Origin: Massilia aquatica
GTDB lineage: Bacteria; Pseudomonadota; Gammaproteobacteria; Burkholderiales; Burkholderiaceae_D
Assembly: GCF_011682045.1 (NCBI RefSeq)
Contig: NZ_VVIW01000024.1
Coordinates: 1-64,000, forward strand
Direction of reading: 5' to 3'
Length of the DNA: 64,000 nt
Shown here: piece after piece, positions 4,900 to 13,696 of the stretch
How positions within the stretch are numbered: position 1 is the stretch's first letter
Layout of the letters: each line of letters opens with the position of its first letter
Notes under the pieces: generated by a model
Databases searched by the model: none
What the model saw: only the letters and a program-made list of their open reading frames with translations
Told to the model about the DNA's origin: nothing
Program-made: the position numbers and the translations under genes

Positions 4900-6318
4900 A
4901 TGCGCTCGCTTCCTCTCCGCCTCGCCGGCACCTGCCTGGCTACCGTTTCCGCCCTCCTTACGCTGCAAGCCCTGCCGGCCGTGGCCGCCGAACCGGCGCT
5001 GCCCGTCATCCACCAGGAACTGCTCGCGCCGCCCGCGCTGCCGCCGCAAATCACGCGCAAGACGCCGGCGCGCGTGGTCGTCAACCTGACCGTCGAGGAA
5101 ATCGAACGCGAGATCGCACCGGGCACGCGCTACACCTTCTGGACCTTCGGCGGCACCGTCCCCGGCAAGATGATCCGCGTGCGCGAAGGCGATACGGTCG
5201 AACTGAACCTGCAAAACCTGGCCGGTAACAAGCTGCCCCACAATATCGACCTGCACGCGGTCACCGGTCCCGGTGGCGGCGCCGGGCAAACCCTGATCGC
5301 ACCGGGCAACCAGGCCAGCTTCACCTTCAAGGCGCTGGCACCGGGCCTGTACGTTTACCACTGCGCCACCGCGCCGGTCGGCATGCACGTCGCGAACGGC
5401 ATGTACGGCATGATCCTGGTCGAACCCAAGGAGGGCATGTCCAAGGTCGACAAGGAGTACTACGTCATGCAGGGCGACTTCTACACCACCGGCGGCTACC
5501 GCGCTCCCGGCCTGCAAGGCTTCGACATGCAGAAAGCGATCGACGAGCGCCCGACCTACGTGCTGTTCAACGGCGCCGACGGCGCACTGACTGGCCAGGG
5601 CACGCTGACCGCCAAGGCGGGCGACAAGGTGCGCATGTTCTTCGGCGTGGGCGGACCGAATACGGTGTCGAGCTTCCACATCATCGGCGCCATCTTCGAC
5701 AAGGTCTATACCGAAGGCGGCAAGCATTTCCAGGAAAACGTGCAGACCACGCTGGTACCGGCGGGCGGTTCGACCATCGTCGAATTCGTGCCCAAGGTGC
5801 CGGGCAACCTGACCTTGGTCGACCACTCGCTCACGCGCGCCTTCAACAAGGGCGCGGTCGGCCTGATGGCGGTCAGCGGACCTGAGCGGCTTGACCTCTA
5901 CGGCAAAGGCGTCAAGACCGCGCTAAACGGCGCCAAGCCGCCTGCCGTAGCGGCCAAGGCGCCACCGGTGCCGGCAGCGACCAGCGCGCAGCGCGTGCGC
6001 GGCAAGTCGGTCTACGATAACACCTGCGCGGCCTGCCATCTGCCGGACGGGAAAGGCGTTCCCGGCGTCTTCCCGCCGCTGGCCAATTCCGACTTTTTCC
6101 AGGAGCGGCCTTACGAAATGGCGCATATCGTGCTGCATGGCCGCAGCGGAGAGCTGGTCGTCAACGGCGAGCATTACAACTCGGTCATGCCGGCGCAGGA
6201 TCTCGATGACGACGATGTCGCCGCCGTCATCAATTACGTCAGCACCGACATGAACGGCGGCAAAGCCGTCATCACGCCGGCCCAGGTCAAGCAGATGCGC
6301 CAGGTCAAAGCCAACTGA
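4900..6318 (+). CDS. nirK: Copper nitrite reductase NirK with C-terminal cytochrome c domain
   Basis: Periplasmic enzyme reducing nitrite to NO. The 472 residues comprise a signal peptide (about 1-30, ending AVAA), two cupredoxin domains (about 55-335) and a C-terminal cytochrome c domain (about 365-450). Copper ligands are visible: His114, Cys155, His163 and Met168 for type 1; His119, His154 and His309 for type 2. Asp117 and His260 are in the catalytic positions. The short YHCATAPVGMH loop is the AniA-like class II form. The tail has a CAACH heme site (376-380) and a likely axial Met430, so the electron donor is built in, as in Ralstonia-type three-domain NirK. Confidence 0.95.
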   Translation: MRSLPLRLAGTCLATVSALLTLQALPAVAAEPALPVIHQELLAPPALPPQITRKTPARVVVNLTVEEIEREIAPGTRYTFWTFGGTVPGKMIRVREGDTVELNLQNLAGNKLPHNIDLHAVTGPGGGAGQTLIAPGNQASFTFKALAPGLYVYHCATAPVGMHVANGMYGMILVEPKEGMSKVDKEYYVMQGDFYTTGGYRAPGLQGFDMQKAIDERPTYVLFNGADGALTGQGTLTAKAGDKVRMFFGVGGPNTVSSFHIIGAIFDKVYTEGGKHFQENVQTTLVPAGGSTIVEFVPKVPGNLTLVDHSLTRAFNKGAVGLMAVSGPERLDLYGKGVKTALNGAKPPAVAAKAPPVPAATSAQRVRGKSVYDNTCAACHLPDGKGVPGVFPPLANSDFFQERPYEMAHIVLHGRSGELVVNGEHYNSVMPAQDLDDDDVAAVINYVSTDMNGGKAVITPAQVKQMRQVKAN

Positions 6319-6325
6319 CCGCGCC

Positions 6326-7120
6326 ATGAAACGTCACCTGATCACGTTTGCCTGTGCGGCGCTGCTGGGCGGCGTCGCCGCCGCAGGCGAGTATGTGGCC
6401 CTGCCCGGCGGCGCGCTGCGCTCCGTCATGCCGGCCGACGGCAAGGATGCCCCGGCCATCGTGGCGCCGTTTTCGATGCGCAGCGCGCAGGTCAGCAACG
6501 CCGAATTCCGCCAGTTCGTGCTGGCGCATCCGGAGTGGCAGCGCGTCCAGGCGCCGGCGGTGCTGGCCGCGCCCACTTACCTGGCGGCGTGGCGCGGCGC
6601 CGCCGATCATGGCGCGCTGGCGCCGGACGCGCCGGTCACCAATGTCAGCTGGCACGCGGCGAACGCCTTTTGCGCCAGCGAAGGCGCGCGCCTGCCGCGC
6701 TGGCACGAATGGGAATACGCCGCCGCGGCCGACGCCACCCGTGCCGACGCCCGCGACGATCCCCAATGGCTGGAGCACATCCTCAACTGGTATGCCCATC
6801 CGGCCAGCACGCCGCCGTCGCGGGTGCGCGCCAATGCCCCGAATTTTTACGGCCTGTACGACATGCACGGCCTGGTGTGGGAATGGGTCGAGGACTACAG
6901 CGCGCTGTTCGTCAGTGCCGATAGCCGCAGCCAGGACCCGCGCAAGCAGCTCGATTACTGCGGCGGCGCGGCGCTCTCGCTGGGCGACCGCCGCAACTAC
7001 GCGGTGCTGATGCGCATCGCCCTGCTGGCCGCGATGGAAGGCGCGCAGGATGGCGGCTACCTGGGCTTTCGCTGCGCGCGCGACGCCGCCAATACACCCC
7101 ATCCGAAAGACTCACCATGA
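6326..7120 (+). CDS. nirV: NirV-like formylglycine-generating-enzyme family protein
   Basis: A 264-residue exported protein: signal peptide about 1-20, then a formylglycine-generating enzyme / sulfatase-modifying-factor fold, seen in VSWHAANAFC, ARLPRWHEWEYAA, GLYDMHGLVWEWVEDY and the terminal GFRCARD. Such NirV proteins commonly follow nirK; their exact role in nitrite reductase function is unsettled. It begins 7 bp after nirK and its stop overlaps the next start (ATGA at 7117-7120). Sulfatase maturation itself is unlikely because no sulfatase is nearby. Confidence 0.85.
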   Translation: MKRHLITFACAALLGGVAAAGEYVALPGGALRSVMPADGKDAPAIVAPFSMRSAQVSNAEFRQFVLAHPEWQRVQAPAVLAAPTYLAAWRGAADHGALAPDAPVTNVSWHAANAFCASEGARLPRWHEWEYAAAADATRADARDDPQWLEHILNWYAHPASTPPSRVRANAPNFYGLYDMHGLVWEWVEDYSALFVSADSRSQDPRKQLDYCGGAALSLGDRRNYAVLMRIALLAAMEGAQDGGYLGFRCARDAANTPHPKDSP

Positions 7121-7707
7121 ACACCTTCAATCCCGTGCGCCGCGCGCTCTTGCGCGCGAGCGTGCTGGCCGCCAGCGTTATCGCGGCCCCGCTGGCGCAC
7201 GCCGATGCGCTGCCGGCCGATTCGCTGTACCGCCTTTCGGTCCCGCTCAAGGACAGCCAGGGGCGCCAGTTCGACTGGCGCGCGCTGGCCGGCCGCCCGC
7301 TGCTGGTGACCATGTTCTACGGCGACTGCAACGCGGCCTGCCCGATCATCATCGAAAACCTGCGCCGCACGGTCGACGCGGTCAAGCCCGCACCGGACCG
7401 GCTGGCGGTGCTGATGGTCAGCCTGGACCCGCTGTACGACACGCCAGGCTCGCTGGCCGACCTGGCCAGATCGCACAAGCTCGATCCGGCCATCTTCCGC
7501 CTGGCGGTGGCCGCCAACGAAACGCATACGCGCGCCATGGCCAGCGCATTGCAGGTCAAGTACCGCGCCGTCACCAAGGGCGAAATCAACCACACCACGC
7601 GCGTGTGCCTGCTCGACGCCGGGGGCAAGCTGCTCGCAAGCAGCACGCAGCTCAGCCCTCTGCCCGACCCCGCGTTTGTCGCCCAGATCCGGCTCGCGGT
7701 CAAATAG
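7117..7707 (+). CDS. SCO1/SenC-family copper chaperone
   Basis: A 196-residue exported thioredoxin-fold protein with a signal peptide of about 29 residues. The copper site is complete: CNAAC (Cys71, Cys75) and His159 in INHTTR. Coupling to nirV through ATGA and the position in the nirK operon suggest that it delivers copper to NirK, or repairs its thiols, instead of serving cytochrome oxidase. This substrate assignment is inference from context. Confidence 0.88.
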   Translation: MNTFNPVRRALLRASVLAASVIAAPLAHADALPADSLYRLSVPLKDSQGRQFDWRALAGRPLLVTMFYGDCNAACPIIIENLRRTVDAVKPAPDRLAVLMVSLDPLYDTPGSLADLARSHKLDPAIFRLAVAANETHTRAMASALQVKYRAVTKGEINHTTRVCLLDAGGKLLASSTQLSPLPDPAFVAQIRLAVK

Positions 7708-7728
7708 CCGGCCCCGAAACCAACCTGG

Positions 7729-7735
7729 ATCAAGG
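7729..7735 (+). promoter_or_regulatory. ATCAAGG half-site before nrdD
   Basis: ATCAAGG preceded by CCAAC-CTGG gives only the right half of an FNR/DNR box. The same ATCAAGGATTTT block follows the good box at 13683-13696, which is why it is noted. It is weak on its own. Confidence 0.3.
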
Positions 7736-7766
7736 ATTTTAAAGACGCGCGAAAACTTCGTTGACC

Positions 7767-7812
7767 ACACTATATACAGTCACTAACCTCTCTCCATGCA
7801 CTACATCTTGTG
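7767..7812 (+). promoter_or_regulatory. Tandem NrdR boxes upstream of nrdD
   Basis: CACTATATACAGTC (7768-7781) and CACTACATCTTGTG (7799-7812) each match 12 of 14 positions of the NrdR-box core CACWATATATWGTG. They are 31 bp apart start to start, which is the fixed spacing of the paired sites bound by the ATP/dATP-responsive repressor NrdR. The second box ends 15 bp before the nrdD ATG. NrdR itself is not in this window. Confidence 0.8.
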
Positions 7813-7827
7813 CCTCATGGAGAGCAA

Positions 7828-9843
7828 ATGATCAATCCACCGCTTCACTTCCCCACCCACATCCGCAAGCGCGACGGCGCCGTCAAGCCGTTCGACGCCA
7901 GCCGCATCAAGTCGGCCATGCAGCGCGCCGCGCAGGCCAGCGGCGAGTTCGATGCCGGCACCGCCCACCGTCTGACCTGGAACGCGGTGCTGCCCGCGCT
8001 GTCGGCACTGGGCATGGACACCCCCGGCGTCGAGCAAGTCCAGGACATGGTGGAAAGCGCCCTGTTCGACGCCGGCCACCGCGCCACCCTGCGCGCCTTT
8101 GTCGTGTATCGCGAGCAGCACCACGGACTGCGGCGCGACCGCAAAAGCCTGATCGACGTCGAAGCGTCGATGAACGAATACCTGGAGCAGCGCGACTGGC
8201 GCGTCAACGCCAACGCCAACCAGGGCTACTCGCTGGGCGGCCTGATTCTCAATGTCTCGGGCAAGGTGATCGCCAACTACTGGCTCGACCACGTGTATCC
8301 GCCCGCCGTGGGCGCGGCCCACCGCAGCGCCGACCTGCACATCCACGATCTCGACATGCTGGCCGGTTACTGCGCCGGCTGGTCGCTGCGCACACTGCTG
8401 CACGAAGGCTTGAATGGCGTGCCGGGCAAGATCGAATCGGCGCCGCCGAAACACATGTCGAGCGCCATCGGCCAGATCGTCAACTTCCTCGGCACCTTGC
8501 AAAATGAATGGGCGGGCGCCCAGGCATTCAGCTCTTTCGACACCTACATGGCGCCGTACGTGCGCGTCGACTCGCTCAGCTACGAGAGCGTCAAGCAGTA
8601 CATCCAGGAGCTGATCTACAACCTGAACGTCCCCTCGCGCTGGGGCACCCAGACGCCGTTCACCAACCTCACCTTCGACTGGGTATGCCCGGAAGACCTG
8701 CGCGAGCAGGTGCCGCACATCGCCGGCGCCGACATGCCGTTTACCTATGGCGACTTGCAGGGCGAGATGGACATGATCAACCGCGCCTACATCGAAATCA
8801 TGATGACCGGCGACGCCAAGGGCCGCGTGTTCACTTTTCCGATCCCGACCTACAACATCACCGAGGACTTTGCGTGGAACAGCCCGAACGCGGAACTGCT
8901 GTTTGAGATGACGGCGCGCTACGGCCTGCCCTACTTCCAGAACTTCCTCAACTCCGAACTGAAGCCGAACATGATCCGTTCGATGTGCTGCCGCCTCCAG
9001 CTCGACCTGCGCGAACTGCTCAAGCGCGGCAACGGCCTGTTCGGATCGGCCGAACAAACCGGCTCGCTCGGCGTGGTGACCATCAACTGCGCGCGCCTGG
9101 GCTACCTGCATGCGGACGACGAGGAAGGCCTGTTCGAGGCGCTCGACCGCCTGCTCGACCTGGGCCGCGACAGCCTGGAAATCAAGCGCAAGGTCATCCA
9201 GCGCCACATGGACAATGGCCTGTTCCCGTACACGAAGCGCTACCTCGGCACCTTGCGCAATCACTTCTCGACCCTGGGCGTGAACGGCGTCAACGAGATG
9301 ATCCGCAATTTCACCTGGGGCGAGCACGATATTGCAAGCGACTGGGGCCACGCCTTCGCCCTGCGCCTGCTGGACCACGTGCGCGCGCGCATGCTCGAAT
9401 TCCAGGACCAGACCGGCCATATGTACAACCTCGAAGCGACGCCCGCCGAAGGCACCACCTACCGTTTCGCGCGCGAAGACCGCAAGCGCCATCCGGACAT
9501 CCTGCAGGCCGGCACCGACGCCATGCCCTACTACACCAACTCCTCGCAACTGCCGGTCGGCTTTACCGACGACCCGTTCGAGGCGCTGGAGCGGCAGGAC
9601 CCACTGCAGCGCAAGTACACCGGCGGCACCGTGCTGCACCTGTACATGAGCGAACCGCTGTCGAGCGCCGACGCCTGCCGGCAGCTGGTCAAGCGCGCCC
9701 TTGGCCGCTTCGGCCTGCCCTACATCACGGTCACGCCCACCTTTTCGATCTGCCCCAAGCACGGTTATCTGGGGGGCAGCCATCCATTTTGTCCCAAATG
9801 CGATCTTGACCTGATCGCGCGCAAGCAACGCGAACTTGCCTAA
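7828..9843 (+). CDS. nrdD: Anaerobic (class III) ribonucleotide reductase, catalytic part lacking glycyl domain
   Basis: Reduces ribonucleoside triphosphates to dNTPs without O2. The 671 residues hold an N-terminal ATP-cone (RKRDGAVKPFDASRI, near 15-30), the ten-stranded barrel with the active-site region SMCCRL (Cys387/Cys388), and a C-terminal zinc site with Cys642, His645, Cys655 and Cys658. The protein stops at KQRELA just after the zinc site, so the usual glycyl-radical loop is missing and is supplied by the next gene. The ATG at 7828 follows GGAGAG; an upstream GTG at 7810 falls inside a NrdR box and is less likely. Confidence 0.95.
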   Translation: MINPPLHFPTHIRKRDGAVKPFDASRIKSAMQRAAQASGEFDAGTAHRLTWNAVLPALSALGMDTPGVEQVQDMVESALFDAGHRATLRAFVVYREQHHGLRRDRKSLIDVEASMNEYLEQRDWRVNANANQGYSLGGLILNVSGKVIANYWLDHVYPPAVGAAHRSADLHIHDLDMLAGYCAGWSLRTLLHEGLNGVPGKIESAPPKHMSSAIGQIVNFLGTLQNEWAGAQAFSSFDTYMAPYVRVDSLSYESVKQYIQELIYNLNVPSRWGTQTPFTNLTFDWVCPEDLREQVPHIAGADMPFTYGDLQGEMDMINRAYIEIMMTGDAKGRVFTFPIPTYNITEDFAWNSPNAELLFEMTARYGLPYFQNFLNSELKPNMIRSMCCRLQLDLRELLKRGNGLFGSAEQTGSLGVVTINCARLGYLHADDEEGLFEALDRLLDLGRDSLEIKRKVIQRHMDNGLFPYTKRYLGTLRNHFSTLGVNGVNEMIRNFTWGEHDIASDWGHAFALRLLDHVRARMLEFQDQTGHMYNLEATPAEGTTYRFAREDRKRHPDILQAGTDAMPYYTNSSQLPVGFTDDPFEALERQDPLQRKYTGGTVLHLYMSEPLSSADACRQLVKRALGRFGLPYITVTPTFSICPKHGYLGGSHPFCPKCDLDLIARKQRELA

Positions 9844-9874
9844 ACACTTTGCGTAACCACTAAAGGAGTTATCC

Positions 9875-10069
9875 ATGTCAGACCTGAGCCAAGCCGTATT
9901 TTTCGTACCCCAAACCATCACCCTCACCGATGCCGAACGCCAGCCGTGTGAAGTCTGGACCCGCGTGATGGGTTATCACCGCCCGGTGTCGTCCTTCAAT
10001 ACCGGCAAGAAGGGCGAGTTCCACGAACGTACCTGGTTCAACGAGCGCGCCATTGCGGCGCGCAGCTAG
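9875..10069 (+). CDS. Separate glycyl-radical domain of NrdD
   Basis: A 64-residue protein containing QPCEVWTRVMGYHRPVSSFN and GKKGEFHER, the sequence normally found at the extreme C-terminus of class III ribonucleotide reductases; Gly33 in RVMGY would carry the radical. It has its own strong ribosome site (AAAGGAG, 9862-9868) and starts 31 bp after the nrdD stop. This is therefore a genuine second cistron and not a simple frameshift. It presumably docks into the NrdD barrel and is activated by NrdG, analogous in principle to the YfiD/GrcA spare part of pyruvate formate-lyase. Confidence 0.88.
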   Translation: MSDLSQAVFFVPQTITLTDAERQPCEVWTRVMGYHRPVSSFNTGKKGEFHERTWFNERAIAARS

Positions 10070-10070
10070 C

Positions 10071-10769
10071 GTGGGCGCCGGCGCGCTGCGGGTGGGCGGG
10101 GTCACCGCCTTTACCGCGACCGATTTCCCCGGCAAACTGGCGGCCGCGGTGTTCATTCAGGGCTGCCCGTGGCGCTGCGGCTACTGCCACAATCCGCACT
10201 TGCAGCCGCGCCGGCGCGGGCCGCACTCGTGGGCCGACGTGATGGCGCTGCTAGTGCGGCGCGCCGGCTTGCTCGACGGCGTGGTGTTCAGCGGCGGCGA
10301 GCCGACCATGGACCCGGCGCTGCCGTTTGCCATGACGGCGGTGCGCCAGATCGGCCTTGCGGTCGGGCTGCACACCGCGTGCATCTACCCGCGCCGGTTG
10401 AAGGAAGTGCTGCCGCTGGTCGATTGGGTGGGGTTTGATATCAAGGCCCCGTTCGACGCGTATCAGAGGGTGACGGGCGTGGCCGGCAGCGGCGAGCCGG
10501 CGCGTGCTTGCCTGGAGATGATCGTCGCCAGCGGCGTGGCGCATGAGTGCAGGACCACGCTGCATCCGGCGCTGTTGTCGGAAGCCGAGGTTGAGGGCTT
10601 GGCCGGTACGCTGGCCGGTGCGGGAGTGCGCAATTACGCCATCCAGACCTTCCGCGCGCAGGGCTGCGCCGATGCCGGCTTGAATGCGACGGCGGGTACT
10701 GTCATGAGCGCAGCGGCGCTGCAACGCATCGGGGCGCGCTTCGAGACCTTCGTACTGCGGCCCGCGTAA
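10071..10769 (+). CDS. nrdG: Radical SAM NrdD-activating protein
   Basis: Generates the glycyl radical on the NrdD system using S-adenosylmethionine. The [4Fe-4S] motif CPWRCGYC (CX3CX2C) and the downstream SGGEPTMD segment are clear. At about 232 residues it is longer than the E. coli type and resembles the pyruvate-formate-lyase-activase-like NrdG group. The GTG at 10071 begins one base after the glycyl-subunit stop; a TTG at 10053 would overlap it. The operon order is catalytic part, glycyl part, activase. Confidence 0.92.
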   Translation: MGAGALRVGGVTAFTATDFPGKLAAAVFIQGCPWRCGYCHNPHLQPRRRGPHSWADVMALLVRRAGLLDGVVFSGGEPTMDPALPFAMTAVRQIGLAVGLHTACIYPRRLKEVLPLVDWVGFDIKAPFDAYQRVTGVAGSGEPARACLEMIVASGVAHECRTTLHPALLSEAEVEGLAGTLAGAGVRNYAIQTFRAQGCADAGLNATAGTVMSAAALQRIGARFETFVLRPA

Positions 10770-10796
10770 GACAGGCACCAAGTTCCAACCCGTTAC

Positions 10797-10833
10797 GATC
10801 CGTCGTCTCCGGCACTGCCGGAGACGACGGATC
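10797..10833. terminator. Hairpin between convergent nrdG and ubi operons
   Basis: GATCCGTCGTCTCCGGC (10797-10813), loop of three bases, and its perfect reverse complement (10817-10833): a 17-bp stem without a T tract. It lies exactly between the two convergent operons and touches the stop codon of the DGC gene, so a bidirectional transcription stop is likely. Confidence 0.7.
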
Positions 10834-11216
10834 TACGGGTTTCGTCCTAAAAGCCTGGCATCGGTGCGCAACTGTTCCGCCAATTGATCGGCGTGCGCCT
10901 TGTCAAAGTCGGCATGCATCTTCTTGCGCACCCCAAGTTCACTGAGCAGCACATGCTGGTCCGGCACCACGCCATGCTGCGCCAGGCACTGGCGCGCGCA
11001 CGCGAGCGGACAACCGTCGATCGCCAGCACCGGGCGCCCCGAGCGGGCCAGCCTGACCAGCGGCGCCACGCCGCCGCCCACGCCGGCGATGCACGACATT
11101 TCAGCCGCGCCGTTGCGGTCGAGCGACAGCGCCAGGTAATTGGCCATCTGCGCCGCGCTCGAACATCCCGAACACGAATACACCAGCGGCAGCACCGCCC
11201 TGTCGGTACCCATCAT
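10833..11216 (-). CDS. DGC-domain putative zinc-binding protein
   Basis: A 127-residue cysteine-rich protein with the family signature IDGCPLACARQCL, plus VYSCSGCSS near the N-terminus and EMSCIAGVGGG. Proteins with this DGC domain are annotated as putative metal-binding and are often found beside anaerobic respiration genes; no reaction is established. It is the last gene of the ubiUVT operon, 9 bp after ubiT. GGGAGG upstream supports one of the two adjacent ATG codons (11216 or 11213). The seven or more cysteines would suit Zn or Fe-S binding. Confidence 0.75.
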   Translation of the reverse strand: MMGTDRAVLPLVYSCSGCSSAAQMANYLALSLDRNGAAEMSCIAGVGGGVAPLVRLARSGRPVLAIDGCPLACARQCLAQHGVVPDQHVLLSELGVRKKMHADFDKAHADQLAEQLRTDARLLGRNP

Positions 11217-11225
11217 CAACCTCCC

Positions 11226-11687
11226 TTACATGGCAGAACCCCGGCGCCAGCGCGCCGGCAGCAAACGCTCCGGATCGAACAGCGCAACGTCAATCGCGTC
11301 GAGCGTGTTCTTCACCAGCAGCCCCAGTTCGGTGTCGCCCTCCATTGTCAGGCGACGTGCAAAAAACAGTGTGTCCGGATCTTCGCGGCGCTGCGCCAGC
11401 AGCAAAAAGTCGCGCGCGCTGGCGCCGATCGACAGGTCCGGCTTCTGCTGCGGCGCAATTGCCACGAAGCGCGATCCGTGCCAGCTCACATCGAAGCGCA
11501 GGCCGGCATCGTTGACGACGATGCAAATCGAGCGATTCTGCATGGCCGCACGCACGTCACCGGGCAGGTGCGGCCCGAGCACGCGCGTCAAGCCGGCTGC
11601 AAACAGCAGCGAACCGGGAAAACGCGGCAGGCGCCCAAGCACGCCGGCCAGCGGCTTGGGCAACAGCGGATACGCGTGCGGCTTCAT
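11226..11687 (-). CDS. ubiT: SCP2-domain lipid-binding protein UbiT
   Basis: A 153-residue protein of the SCP2/YhbT type. UbiT binds ubiquinone precursors for the O2-independent hydroxylation pathway. The N-terminal FPGSLLFAAGLTRVLG helix and the central strand-rich SCP2 core ending FARRLTMEGDTELGLLVKN are visible. Its start overlaps the ubiV stop as ATGA (11684-11687), so the two are translated together, as in other proteobacterial ubiTUV clusters. Confidence 0.88.
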   Translation of the reverse strand: MKPHAYPLLPKPLAGVLGRLPRFPGSLLFAAGLTRVLGPHLPGDVRAAMQNRSICIVVNDAGLRFDVSWHGSRFVAIAPQQKPDLSIGASARDFLLLAQRREDPDTLFFARRLTMEGDTELGLLVKNTLDAIDVALFDPERLLPARWRRGSAM

Positions 11688-12586
11688 GCTGCCTCCCGCT
11701 TGTCGAACGCCATGCCTGGTTTACCGTGCCAGTAGCCGTCGCAGGCTGCCGCCGGCATCAACGGCGCCAGGACCGCCTGCGCCTGGACCGTGTCGATCTG
11801 GCCGTGGCGCGCGCGGTCGAACAGCGCCACCACCGCGTCGGTATGCTGCGCCTGTGGGCTGATACGCAGCACGTCCACGCCCATCGACGCCAATACCGTC
11901 ATTTCGCCCAGCAGGTTATACACCAGGTGCGACTGGATCTGGGTGCCGTTCAGGATCAAAAAGGTATCGGCGTCGCGCGTGCGCAGTTCCAGTCCGTCCG
12001 GGTGCGCCATGCAGCTGAACTGGCAATCGTCCTTGCCCAGGTTGCGGTGGCGCGCCGTAAAGCAGCGCGCGGAAAACGCCAGCGGCATGCGCCCGTAGGC
12101 GAATACCTCGGTCTCCAGCCCCGCCGGGCGGCTTTGCTGCATCGTCGCCAGTGCGGCGCGGCCCATCTCCAACGGCATGACCCAGCGCCGTGCGCCCAGT
12201 TGCGCCATCAGCGCCACGCTGTCTTCGTTGTACAGGTTCAGGTGCGGGCCGGCCACGAACGGCAGCGTGCCGTCCAGGCAGTGCACCGCGCCGATATCGT
12301 TCGCTTCGATCGCAAAGCGCCCGTTGGAGGTGAGTTTGCGCAGGTTGGCCAGGTCGCTGCCCGATTCGAGCAGGGCCTGGGTCGAGAGCACCACCTCCTT
12401 GCCGGCGTCGGCCAGCATGGCTGCGAGCGAGAGCCAGTCGGGCAGGCGCAGCTCGTGGCGGCGCGAGCACACCGTTTCGCCAAGGTAGACGATATCGACC
12501 GAGCTTGCCGCCACTGATTCGTAGAATGCCATCATCGTATCGCGCGGCCAGTAGTACAACACCGGTCCGAGGGCCAGTTTCATCAT
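11684..12586 (-). CDS. ubiV: O2-independent ubiquinone hydroxylase subunit UbiV
   Basis: A 300-residue member of the U32 peptidase-like family, now assigned to anaerobic ubiquinone hydroxylation with UbiU, probably using prephenate as oxygen donor. Cysteines 40, 175, 188 and 192 keep the 13- and 4-residue spacings of the [4Fe-4S] ligands in E. coli UbiV (YhbV). It lies 10 bp after ubiU and overlaps ubiT. The clear ligand set argues against a true peptidase. Confidence 0.92.
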   Translation of the reverse strand: MMKLALGPVLYYWPRDTMMAFYESVAASSVDIVYLGETVCSRRHELRLPDWLSLAAMLADAGKEVVLSTQALLESGSDLANLRKLTSNGRFAIEANDIGAVHCLDGTLPFVAGPHLNLYNEDSVALMAQLGARRWVMPLEMGRAALATMQQSRPAGLETEVFAYGRMPLAFSARCFTARHRNLGKDDCQFSCMAHPDGLELRTRDADTFLILNGTQIQSHLVYNLLGEMTVLASMGVDVLRISPQAQHTDAVVALFDRARHGQIDTVQAQAVLAPLMPAAACDGYWHGKPGMAFDKREAA

Positions 12587-12596
12587 CGTGCCTCCC

Positions 12597-13631
12597 TTAT
12601 TTCCATGAGCGGTGGTAGGCGCCCAGCGTGTGCTGCTGCCCCTCCGCCACCTTGTTCAGATCTGCCATCCATGCCTGTTTGGCCGAAAACCGCAGCGGAC
12701 TGGCGTGGTACTGGTCAATCGCTTCGCGCCACACGCGCGTTACCTGCGCCACGTAGGCGGGACTGCGCTGGCGCCCTTCGATCTTGATCGCGCTTACGCC
12801 CAGTTCGATCAACTGCGGTAGCAGTTCCAGCGTGTTCAGGCTGGCCGGCTCCTCGATCGCGTAAAACTGTTCGCCGGCGACGTCGAAGCGTCCCTTGCAC
12901 AGGGTTGGATAATTGGCCTGCTCGCCGTCGGCGTAGCGGTCGATCAGCACATCGTTCAGGCGCGACTCCAGTCCGGCCGGAGTCTGCTGCCAGCGCACCG
13001 CCTTGGCCGGCGAACACACGCCATGCGTGTTGGGCGACTCGCCCGTGGCGTACGACGACAGCGCGCAGCGCCCTTCGACCATCACGCACAGGCTGCCGAA
13101 GCCGAAGACCTCGATTTCGACCGGCGTATTGCGCACGACCTGCTCCACCTGCGCCACCGACAGCACCCGCGGCAGCACCGCGCGCGCAATGCCGAAGTGG
13201 CGGTGGAAGAAGTTGATGGCCTCGTAATTGGTGGCCGAACCCTGCACCGACAGGTGCAGCCGCAGCGCCGGATAGCGCTCGGCGGCGTAGCGCATCAGGC
13301 CCGGGTCGGCCAGGATGATGGCGTCGATGCCGGCGCCGGCGGCGCGGTCGATGGCGCGCCGCCACAAGGCGCCGGCGGCCGGCTGCGGATAGGTGTTCAG
13401 CGCCAGCAGCACCTTGCGCCCACGCGCGTGGCTGTAGGCGATGCCCTGTTCGATCGCGGCTTCGTCGAAGTTCAGGCCGGCGAAGTTGCGGGCGTTGGTC
13501 GCATCGCGAAAACCGAGGTAGACGCAGTCGGCGCCATTGTCCACGGCCGCCTTGAGGGCCGGCAGGCTACCGGCCGGGCACACCAGTTCGAACGGCGTGG
13601 CGCCGTCGGAGGAATTTGACATCATGTTCAT
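12597..13631 (-). CDS. ubiU: O2-independent ubiquinone hydroxylase subunit UbiU
   Basis: About 344 residues, U32 family. Cys182, Cys189, Cys206 and Cys245 reproduce the 7-17-39 spacing of the [4Fe-4S] ligands of E. coli UbiU (YhbU), and FELVCPAGSLPALKAAVDNG is the standard N-terminus. Starts at 13631, 13625 or 13622 are all possible. It is the first gene of ubiU-ubiV-ubiT-DGC. A near-perfect FNR/DNR box lies about 50 bp upstream, fitting expression when O2 is low. Confidence 0.92.
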   Translation of the reverse strand: MNMMSNSSDGATPFELVCPAGSLPALKAAVDNGADCVYLGFRDATNARNFAGLNFDEAAIEQGIAYSHARGRKVLLALNTYPQPAAGALWRRAIDRAAGAGIDAIILADPGLMRYAAERYPALRLHLSVQGSATNYEAINFFHRHFGIARAVLPRVLSVAQVEQVVRNTPVEIEVFGFGSLCVMVEGRCALSSYATGESPNTHGVCSPAKAVRWQQTPAGLESRLNDVLIDRYADGEQANYPTLCKGRFDVAGEQFYAIEEPASLNTLELLPQLIELGVSAIKIEGRQRSPAYVAQVTRVWREAIDQYHASPLRFSAKQAWMADLNKVAEGQQHTLGAYHRSWK

Positions 13632-13682
13632 TCGTCGTAAGGTGGGGGACTGCACTGTAGCCCGGCGGCCGTCCTAAAATCT

Positions 13683-13696
13683 TTGACCTGCATCAA
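13683..13696. promoter_or_regulatory. FNR/DNR-type box between ubiU and the hemerythrin operon
   Basis: TTGAC-CTGC-ATCAA matches TTGAT-N4-ATCAA at 9 of 10 half-site positions. It is centred about 58 bp from the ubiU start and 66 bp from the hemerythrin start, so it may serve both divergent operons. Whether the regulator is FNR or an NO-responsive DNR cannot be told from the site. Confidence 0.7.

Follow-up and report, generated by a model that had tools for sequence, protein, structure and literature searches.

Small free-standing glycyl radical proteins are known from the pyruvate formate-lyase (PFL) system, in which GrcA (YfiD) of Escherichia coli and Y06I of phage T4 are autonomous glycyl radical cofactors, GrcA rescuing oxygen-damaged PflB intermolecularly and Y06I being its phage counterpart (PMC12338860). 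Class III ribonucleotide reductases (NrdD) of the NF006126/PRK08270 type are modeled as one chain with an ATP-cone, an NRDD domain, finger-loop cysteines, a zinc site and a radical-glycine motif, served by an activase of the NrdG2 type. All of these elements occur at a locus of Massilia aquatica within the first 64,000 nucleotides of contig NZ_VVIW01000024.1 (the whole stretch analyzed, referred to as the window), but here the radical segment is a separate polypeptide of 64 residues. It is likely (a probability of roughly 80%) that the class III reductase encoded at the locus has two subunits, of which the one bearing the radical is replaceable, and that phages also supply this radical subunit.

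Other divided ribonucleotide reductases differ from this one. The split pair NrdJa/NrdJb (PMC9669993) belongs to the cobalamin-dependent class II and is not known to carry a radical glycine. The nrdD gene is found in pieces in phages, where most of the breaks are attributed to introns, inteins or endonucleases and one is unexplained (PMC3653736), while the break considered here falls at a domain border, is conserved, and is followed by a start and a ribosome site of its own. A literature search, in which subscription journals were thinly covered and the notes in RNRdb lay outside, found neither a split NrdD with a separate radical polypeptide nor phage-borne NrdD radical domains, and a prior description is possible. 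The split itself is visible from annotation, the small gene often being named nrdD; the surprising and new part is a radical subunit that is mobile, phage-borne and present in several copies.

One enzyme encoded by two open reading frames

The large and the small open reading frame (ORF) cover adjacent and complementary parts of the family models. In Pfam NRDD (562 positions) nrdD covers positions 2-528 and the small ORF 530-560, and in NCBIfam NF006126 (684 positions) the two cover 3-657 and 649-682, respectively. The Pfam matches identify an NRDD catalytic domain with an ATP-cone (E 1.9e-170 and 8.2e-18), the NF006126 score of 1110.6 bits (cut-off 548) identifies a class III reductase, and the gene next door is an NrdG activase by its match to TIGR02495 (184.2 bits, cut-off 131.15). 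Because nrdD and the small ORF together tile both models, the locus reads as a single enzyme severed immediately ahead of its radical segment, together with the activase, and since the radical glycine sits on a separate ORF and not at the C-terminus of the same chain, it is filed as a split variant and not as a standard NrdD. A class III ribonucleotide reductase split into catalytic and radical polypeptides, as proposed in an earlier reading of the window made from the sequence without database searches (the sequence-only reading), is thereby confirmed.

The residues assigned in that reading were all numbered correctly, namely the finger-loop cysteines (Cys387/388), the zinc site (Cys642/His645/Cys655/Cys658) and Gly33 of the small protein, and the closely following cistron with its own ribosome site is as described (Table 1). 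Across 26 aligned NrdD bodies there is no variation at C387, C388, C642, H645, C655 or C658, metal binding being predicted from the residues. NrdD ends 13 residues beyond Cys658, the last zinc-site cysteine, and the small ORF, preceded by AAAGGAG, lies in a different frame. The cut falls between the zinc site, which NrdD keeps, and the glycine loop. For Prevotella copri NrdD the literature describes a C-terminal domain consisting of a zinc site, then a buried glycine loop, then a tail over the surface, and reports that in the dATP state this domain is mobile and the glycyl radical still forms (PMC11226230).

In the genome that contains the window (7.47 Mb, completeness 100), Pfam NRDD picks out an NrdD body and a glycyl-radical segment, one of each, and a search with the small protein itself also found one radical segment. 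The sequence-only reading had allowed for a second full-length nrdD elsewhere in the genome as a reason to doubt it; the Pfam NRDD search of this genome found none.

Around nrdD, window positions 4900-13655 form an anaerobic-respiration neighborhood, with a copper nitrite reductase bearing a cytochrome-type tail upstream, and ubiT, ubiV and ubiU downstream on the opposite strand. An FNR-like box with one mismatch lies at 13683-13696, just upstream of ubiU; no FNR-type box was found in 7708-7827 with up to two mismatches allowed.

Table 1. Features of the split class III ribonucleotide reductase locus (window coordinates)
Feature	Position	Strand	Remarks
nrdD (class III ribonucleotide reductase, catalytic polypeptide)	7828..9843	+	671 aa; ATP-cone, NRDD domain, no glycyl-radical segment
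Gap between nrdD and small gene, with ribosome-binding sequence AAAGGAG	9844..9874	+	31 nt
Glycyl-radical subunit gene, separate	9875..10069	+	64 aa; motif CEVWTRVMGYHRPVSSFN, radical site Gly33
nrdG (NrdG2 type radical S-adenosylmethionine activase)	10071..10769	+	GTG start inferred; one base past the stop of the small gene

Recurrence and history of the split

Tabulating the genomes in which the 64-residue protein is separate, a check suggested together with the original observation, supports the view that the split is widespread and old, and not local. Used as a query, the small protein found matches in 84 of 294 genomes at family level, 68 of 250 at order level, 33 of 369 at class level and 12 of 299 at phylum level, in samples that overlap slightly. 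Radical segments lie on 219 cellular loci, some from genomes that occur twice (e.g., L010/L337, L106/L359, L118/L361 and L119/L362): 178 are split from an adjacent nrdD, 16 are fused (L334 being counted twice), 25 have no nrdD beside them (some at contig ends), and 2 lie on short stretches. With later loci included, 177 of 194 NrdD loci are split, or 142 of 156 after de-duplication, and because sampling was done mostly with the small protein or a phage relative, and was biased towards the split lineage, these counts are not population frequencies. De-duplication removed near-identical NrdD (>97% over the last 380 residues), fragments of <380 model positions having been dropped before, and the 194 include the viral-contig loci L126 or L160, if above that limit, and phage record L380.

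Fusion was scored only where both domains share one ORF; a long open frame was rejected as proof of fusion, as the frame may be another one (e.g., L322). Loci at contig ends (L046, L055, L060, L073, L107, L287, L305, L341 and L372) were not counted as orphans, and L080 and L342 are the same place. A fused NrdD fragment at L334 (3-1679) has two tandem radical segments in one chain.

Carriers of the split include Cupriavidus necator H16, Sulfuricurvum kujiense, Bradyrhizobium barranii, Sutterella wadsworthensis, Parasutterella secunda, Thauera linaloolentis, Rugamonas rubra, Thiohalocapsa marina and Pararhodospirillum oryzae, as well as metagenome-assembled genomes (MAGs) labeled Actinobacteria (one), Omnitrophota (two) and Elusimicrobia (one). 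Fused NrdD occurs in Acidiphilium cryptum, Actinomyces oris, Geoalkalibacter subterraneus and a Verrucomicrobiota MAG. The same three genes are found in Sulfuricurvum, where the small one is annotated nrdD, and on pHG1 of C. necator H16, whose record names the large gene ribonucleoside triphosphate reductase and the small one nrdD, anaerobic ribonucleoside-triphosphate reductase. Complete denitrification in C. necator H16 is reported to require nrdDG (PMC2864759), and since this organism has the split layout, the split class III enzyme appears to be functional in vivo.

The sequence-only reading had itself raised the possibility of a sequencing error joining the two frames, and genuinely broken nrdD genes exist, such as that of Massilia sp. 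H-1 (L010/L337), which is spread over several frames, and the NrdD of the window's type in Sutterella genome G1171, which is broken into two. That the M. aquatica locus is likewise a full-length NrdD interrupted by a frameshift or stop, in a pseudogene or through sequencing error, is nevertheless refuted with near certainty. The break point is identical in 161 distinct split loci, in which all three frame relations between the small gene and nrdD occur (60, 55 and 46 loci), and the small ORF shows purifying selection within the window's genus, the ratio of nonsynonymous to synonymous differences per site (pN/pS) being 0.02-0.35 against seven congeners. A start codon and ribosome site are regularly present, with a Shine-Dalgarno-like match of at least 4 letters at the best start in 159 of the 161 loci, an upper figure since the best start was chosen for each locus. 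After de-duplication, 142 split sequences remain, and nrdG is directly downstream in 169 of 178 split cases. In the deposited Massilia sp. H-1 genome the radical segment looks fused, and the sequence there is probably of low quality.

The two products might instead be joined into one working chain during or after translation, by ribosomal frameshifting, protein splicing or ligation. Fused relatives, such as L320 and the clade of family f37, indicate that a covalent link is compatible with function, but the gap between the nrdD stop and the chosen start of the small gene varies (median 28 nt, with overlaps in 28 of the 161 loci), all three frames occur, and the small gene is also found alone elsewhere, so that no single recoding signal could serve all loci and such joining is hardly credible.

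A tree of 156 NrdD bodies without the radical segment, rooted with an outgroup of five divergent fused sequences, has an ingroup of 151, of which 142 are split and 9 fused. Support values are from the Shimodaira-Hasegawa-like approximate likelihood ratio test (SH-aLRT) only, with many open forks and several long branches. At least 7 changes between split and fused are needed on this tree, of which only 2 are forced by well-supported branches, so that how often the state changed, and in which direction, can be given only approximately. A fused clade of four (family f37, support 99) is nested among split forms and is probably a re-fusion.

Radical genes beyond the nrdD operon

In each of the 17 genomes with extra copies that were examined, a single split nrdD-radical pair is accompanied by one to three further radical genes. 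Ten genomes reached via named loci have one NrdD of the window's type each, with a radical gene adjoining it, and 2-4 radical segments in total, compared with one NrdD and one segment in each of two control genomes; one split pair plus extras is likewise found in G124, G137, G158, G369, G396, G462 and G533. No nrdG was found beside the pair of G369, the extra copy of G462 (L385) adjoins degraded nrdD and nrdG remnants, and G1166 has three extras, two of which are nearly identical stretches of a single contig. Within the genus of G124, 6 of 13 genomes have the segment and 3 of those 6 have extras.

Several of the extra copies lie in phage-like surroundings. Genes that match the viral set number 19 of 35 around L276/L277, 13 of 20 around L291, 22 of 37 around L301 and 8 of 19 around L302, compared with 38 of 443 genes around ordinary operons, and by their gene content these loci are prophages or phages. 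The radical gene adjoins a phage lysozyme in L032 and sits among RecT and WGR genes in L342, and in Allochromatium vinosum it is on plasmid pALVIN01, behind a CHAP-domain gene and with no nrdD within 3 kb. No phage features were found near L031, L036, L274, L285 and L300 where these were looked for, and no viral-set matches among the neighbors of L035 and L037, for which only the viral-set comparison was made; the stretches of L279, L280 and L283 are too short to judge. L276 and L277 are the same phage region present twice, 42,130 bp apart on one 80-kb contig (JAFUSH010000052.1), with starts that are identical over 6,141 bases, indicating either tandem prophages or a circular genome assembled twice through.

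Stand-alone copies also occur on viral contigs. Two scans of IMG/VR gave 142 and 184 relatives, and the best 80 of each represent 153 distinct loci, corresponding to 115 distinct loci by local DNA and to 105 distinct proteins (including those of L126 and L160). In 150 of the 153, no nrdD or nrdG was found in a stretch of up to 10 kb on each side, the exceptions being L126 and L160, which have a fused NrdD fragment plus NrdG and a split NrdD, respectively, and L125, where an nrdG-like fragment lies at a distance of about 9 kb. When 50 long viral contigs (20.8 to 183 kb) were searched whole, 49 had no NrdD body like that of the window, and the same 49 had none by Pfam NRDD, which also reads the E. 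coli, Thermotoga maritima and archaeal types of NrdD; 48 match only the radical end of this model (positions 513-562) and one gave no match. Ten neighboring proteins were scanned, and seven of them have matches to families of endolysin, integrase, portal (two), terminase, head protein and RusA. The phage copies thus resemble auxiliary genes, lying among structural, lysis and integration genes without nrdD.

It is very unlikely that the phage gene is only an attachment-site copy, that is, that the phage integrates into the host radical gene and restores its end, the function of the product being irrelevant. The radical gene does adjoin an integrase in several prophages (L276, L301 and L302), but in L302 the integrase lies between the radical gene and genes without viral matches, the host nrdD-radical pair is located elsewhere in those genomes, and many copies are near lysis or packaging genes. 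Counting the four genes closest to the radical gene on each side, the integrase cluster detected occurs in just 8 of the 115 viral loci, although other integrases may be unclustered.

The phage proteins keep the radical motif. Each of the 153 phage hits that extend over the position of the radical glycine has this residue, with no motif pattern required, although the scans favor the motif (120 of 155 hits contain one of the search patterns that include that Gly). R, P, N, GK, E and R around the glycine are invariant in 103 phage fragments and likewise in 145 canonical ones, R, G and Y/F being fixed by construction since the 103-fragment alignment requires R-x-x-G-[YF]; five hits lie outside this alignment (L124 and two pieces each of L196 and L197), and in L196 and L197 Cys replaces the Pro after YHR. 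The phage copies are also under purifying selection, as pN is lower than pS in 39 of 39 disjoint pairs (median ratio 0.20). Their nearest PHROGs family is phrog_4132, which matches the small protein (E 1.1e-8) and an orphan prophage copy (E 1.3e-7); it has no assigned function, and only positions 112-157 of its 179-position profile match.

Some phage loci have further peculiarities. In L196 (1420-1960), and also in L197, a likely group I intron (Rfam RF00028, E 1.4e-7; 36.9 bits, under the gathering score of 50) sits in the radical gene, separating the stretches that encode WTR and VMGYHR. L160 (7350-9803) encodes a split-type NrdD of 818 aa with a long insert at the finger-loop cysteine that ends in THN-C and is probably an intein (Pfam Intein_splicing, E 0.0022, below the cut-off), and the phage NrdD of L380 (MT835493.1, 3009-5438) has a glutaredoxin-like domain fused at its C-terminus. 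A protein of 116-118 aa is encoded just upstream of the radical gene in L276 (9655-10008) and L211 (6411-6758), overlapping it by 8 nt in L276 if the called start is used; it has no Pfam match, the L211 copy also has no PHROG match, and its cluster adjoins the radical gene in 11 of the 115 viral loci. The radical proteins of L166, L169, L171, L132 and L176 have an N-terminal extension with several cysteines, and in L166 and L169 the NRDD match reaches back to position 513, as if part of the zinc segment were included.

A proposed replaceable radical subunit

How could a reductase cut in this way operate? Of the two chains, the large NrdD has the barrel with the cysteine of the thiyl radical, the ATP-cone and the zinc site, and the 64-residue protein has the radical glycine, so that the gene layout would lead the radical subunit to dock in trans. 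NrdG would form the glycyl radical on the small protein, which, once activated, would place its glycine loop inside the barrel of NrdD, next to Cys387/388. Cleavage by oxygen would then affect only the cheap 64-residue subunit, and with the damage confined to it the enzyme would be repairable by exchange. The extra copies on chromosomes, in prophages and on a plasmid, together with those of phages, would provide additional subunits to that same NrdD of the host.

The resemblance to the GrcA type is partial. The 64-residue protein is a small free-standing protein with a glycyl-radical motif, known also from extra and phage copies, and, like GrcA and Y06I, which are proposed to insert a glycine into a large partner, it may act on a much larger chain (PMC12338860). 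It is kin to NrdD and not to PFL, as its only Pfam match up to E 0.1 is NRDD, and the enzyme makes deoxyribonucleotides. The family in which kinship to PFL would have shown is Gly_radical, which we take to be the Pfam family of the PFL glycyl-radical domain. As the window NrdD has no radical domain of its own, the small protein would be an obligate subunit, and not only a rescue factor. By analogy it probably works as GrcA and Y06I do, but outside that family, and its phage copies would be the ribonucleotide-reductase counterpart of Y06I. The idea in the sequence-only reading that the small protein serves as a spare part, as YfiD does, has thus gained indirect support from the extra cellular and stand-alone phage copies, while the parallel with YfiD holds incompletely because the subunit is obligate here.

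A number of observations weigh against this interpretation. The AlphaFold models of a fused natural relative and of the window NrdD are of moderate confidence (mean predicted local distance difference test, pLDDT, about 75), and although the former matches NrdD structures (VIA Z up to 22.7, with P. copri NrdD), its glycyl segment fell outside the structural alignment and the glycine loop was not placed, so that docking is something we still infer; a PDB sequence search with the 64-residue protein had no hits up to E 1. A second, distant, fused NrdD of another type, with the motif RVCGYLG, occurs in addition to the split one in two Sutterella genomes (L394 in G1171, which has an extra radical copy, and L395 in the control G1176), and the query used on other genomes could miss such a type. 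The link between extra copies and hosts with split NrdD rests on few genomes; in the small control provided by the fused family f37, 6 of 9 genomes have one segment each and none has extras. No solo radical gene was found with three queries in 50,697 GenBank phage records, where the hits are annotated NrdD, one fused NrdD (MT835493.1) or weak (Gordonia phage, E 0.3), and the literature searched yielded no expression, electron paramagnetic resonance or genetic data on the small gene alone.

The phage and extra copies could also be inhibitors, decoys that occupy NrdD or NrdG and so lower the deoxyribonucleoside triphosphate (dNTP) synthesis of the host or of rival phages. Competition for the docking site is conceivable for a free radical domain, genes for host takeover are common in phages, and the results so far are compatible with either role. 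A decoy would not need the glycine, which every phage hit covering its position retains, albeit in scans that favor the motif, and prophage copies are kept in genomes that hold a split nrdD-radical pair; we consider inhibition unlikely. Slightly favored, by comparison with its negation, is the fuller proposal that the radical part of the enzyme became free, exchangeable and mobile, being, in one large NrdD lineage, an obligate subunit encoded by up to four genes in some genomes with one such NrdD, and with stand-alone copies of tailed phages and prophages fitting into the enzyme of the host in the course of infection or lysogeny.

For annotation, this means that treating NrdD as one chain misses both the radical subunit and its extra copies. 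The split lets the action of a glycyl radical in trans in ribonucleotide reduction be tested in vivo by way of a single 64-codon gene. It also suggests a function for phage genes whose nearest family is of unknown function, and suggests that phages of oxygen-poor habitats may boost or repair the dNTP supply of their hosts with a gene of about 50 codons.

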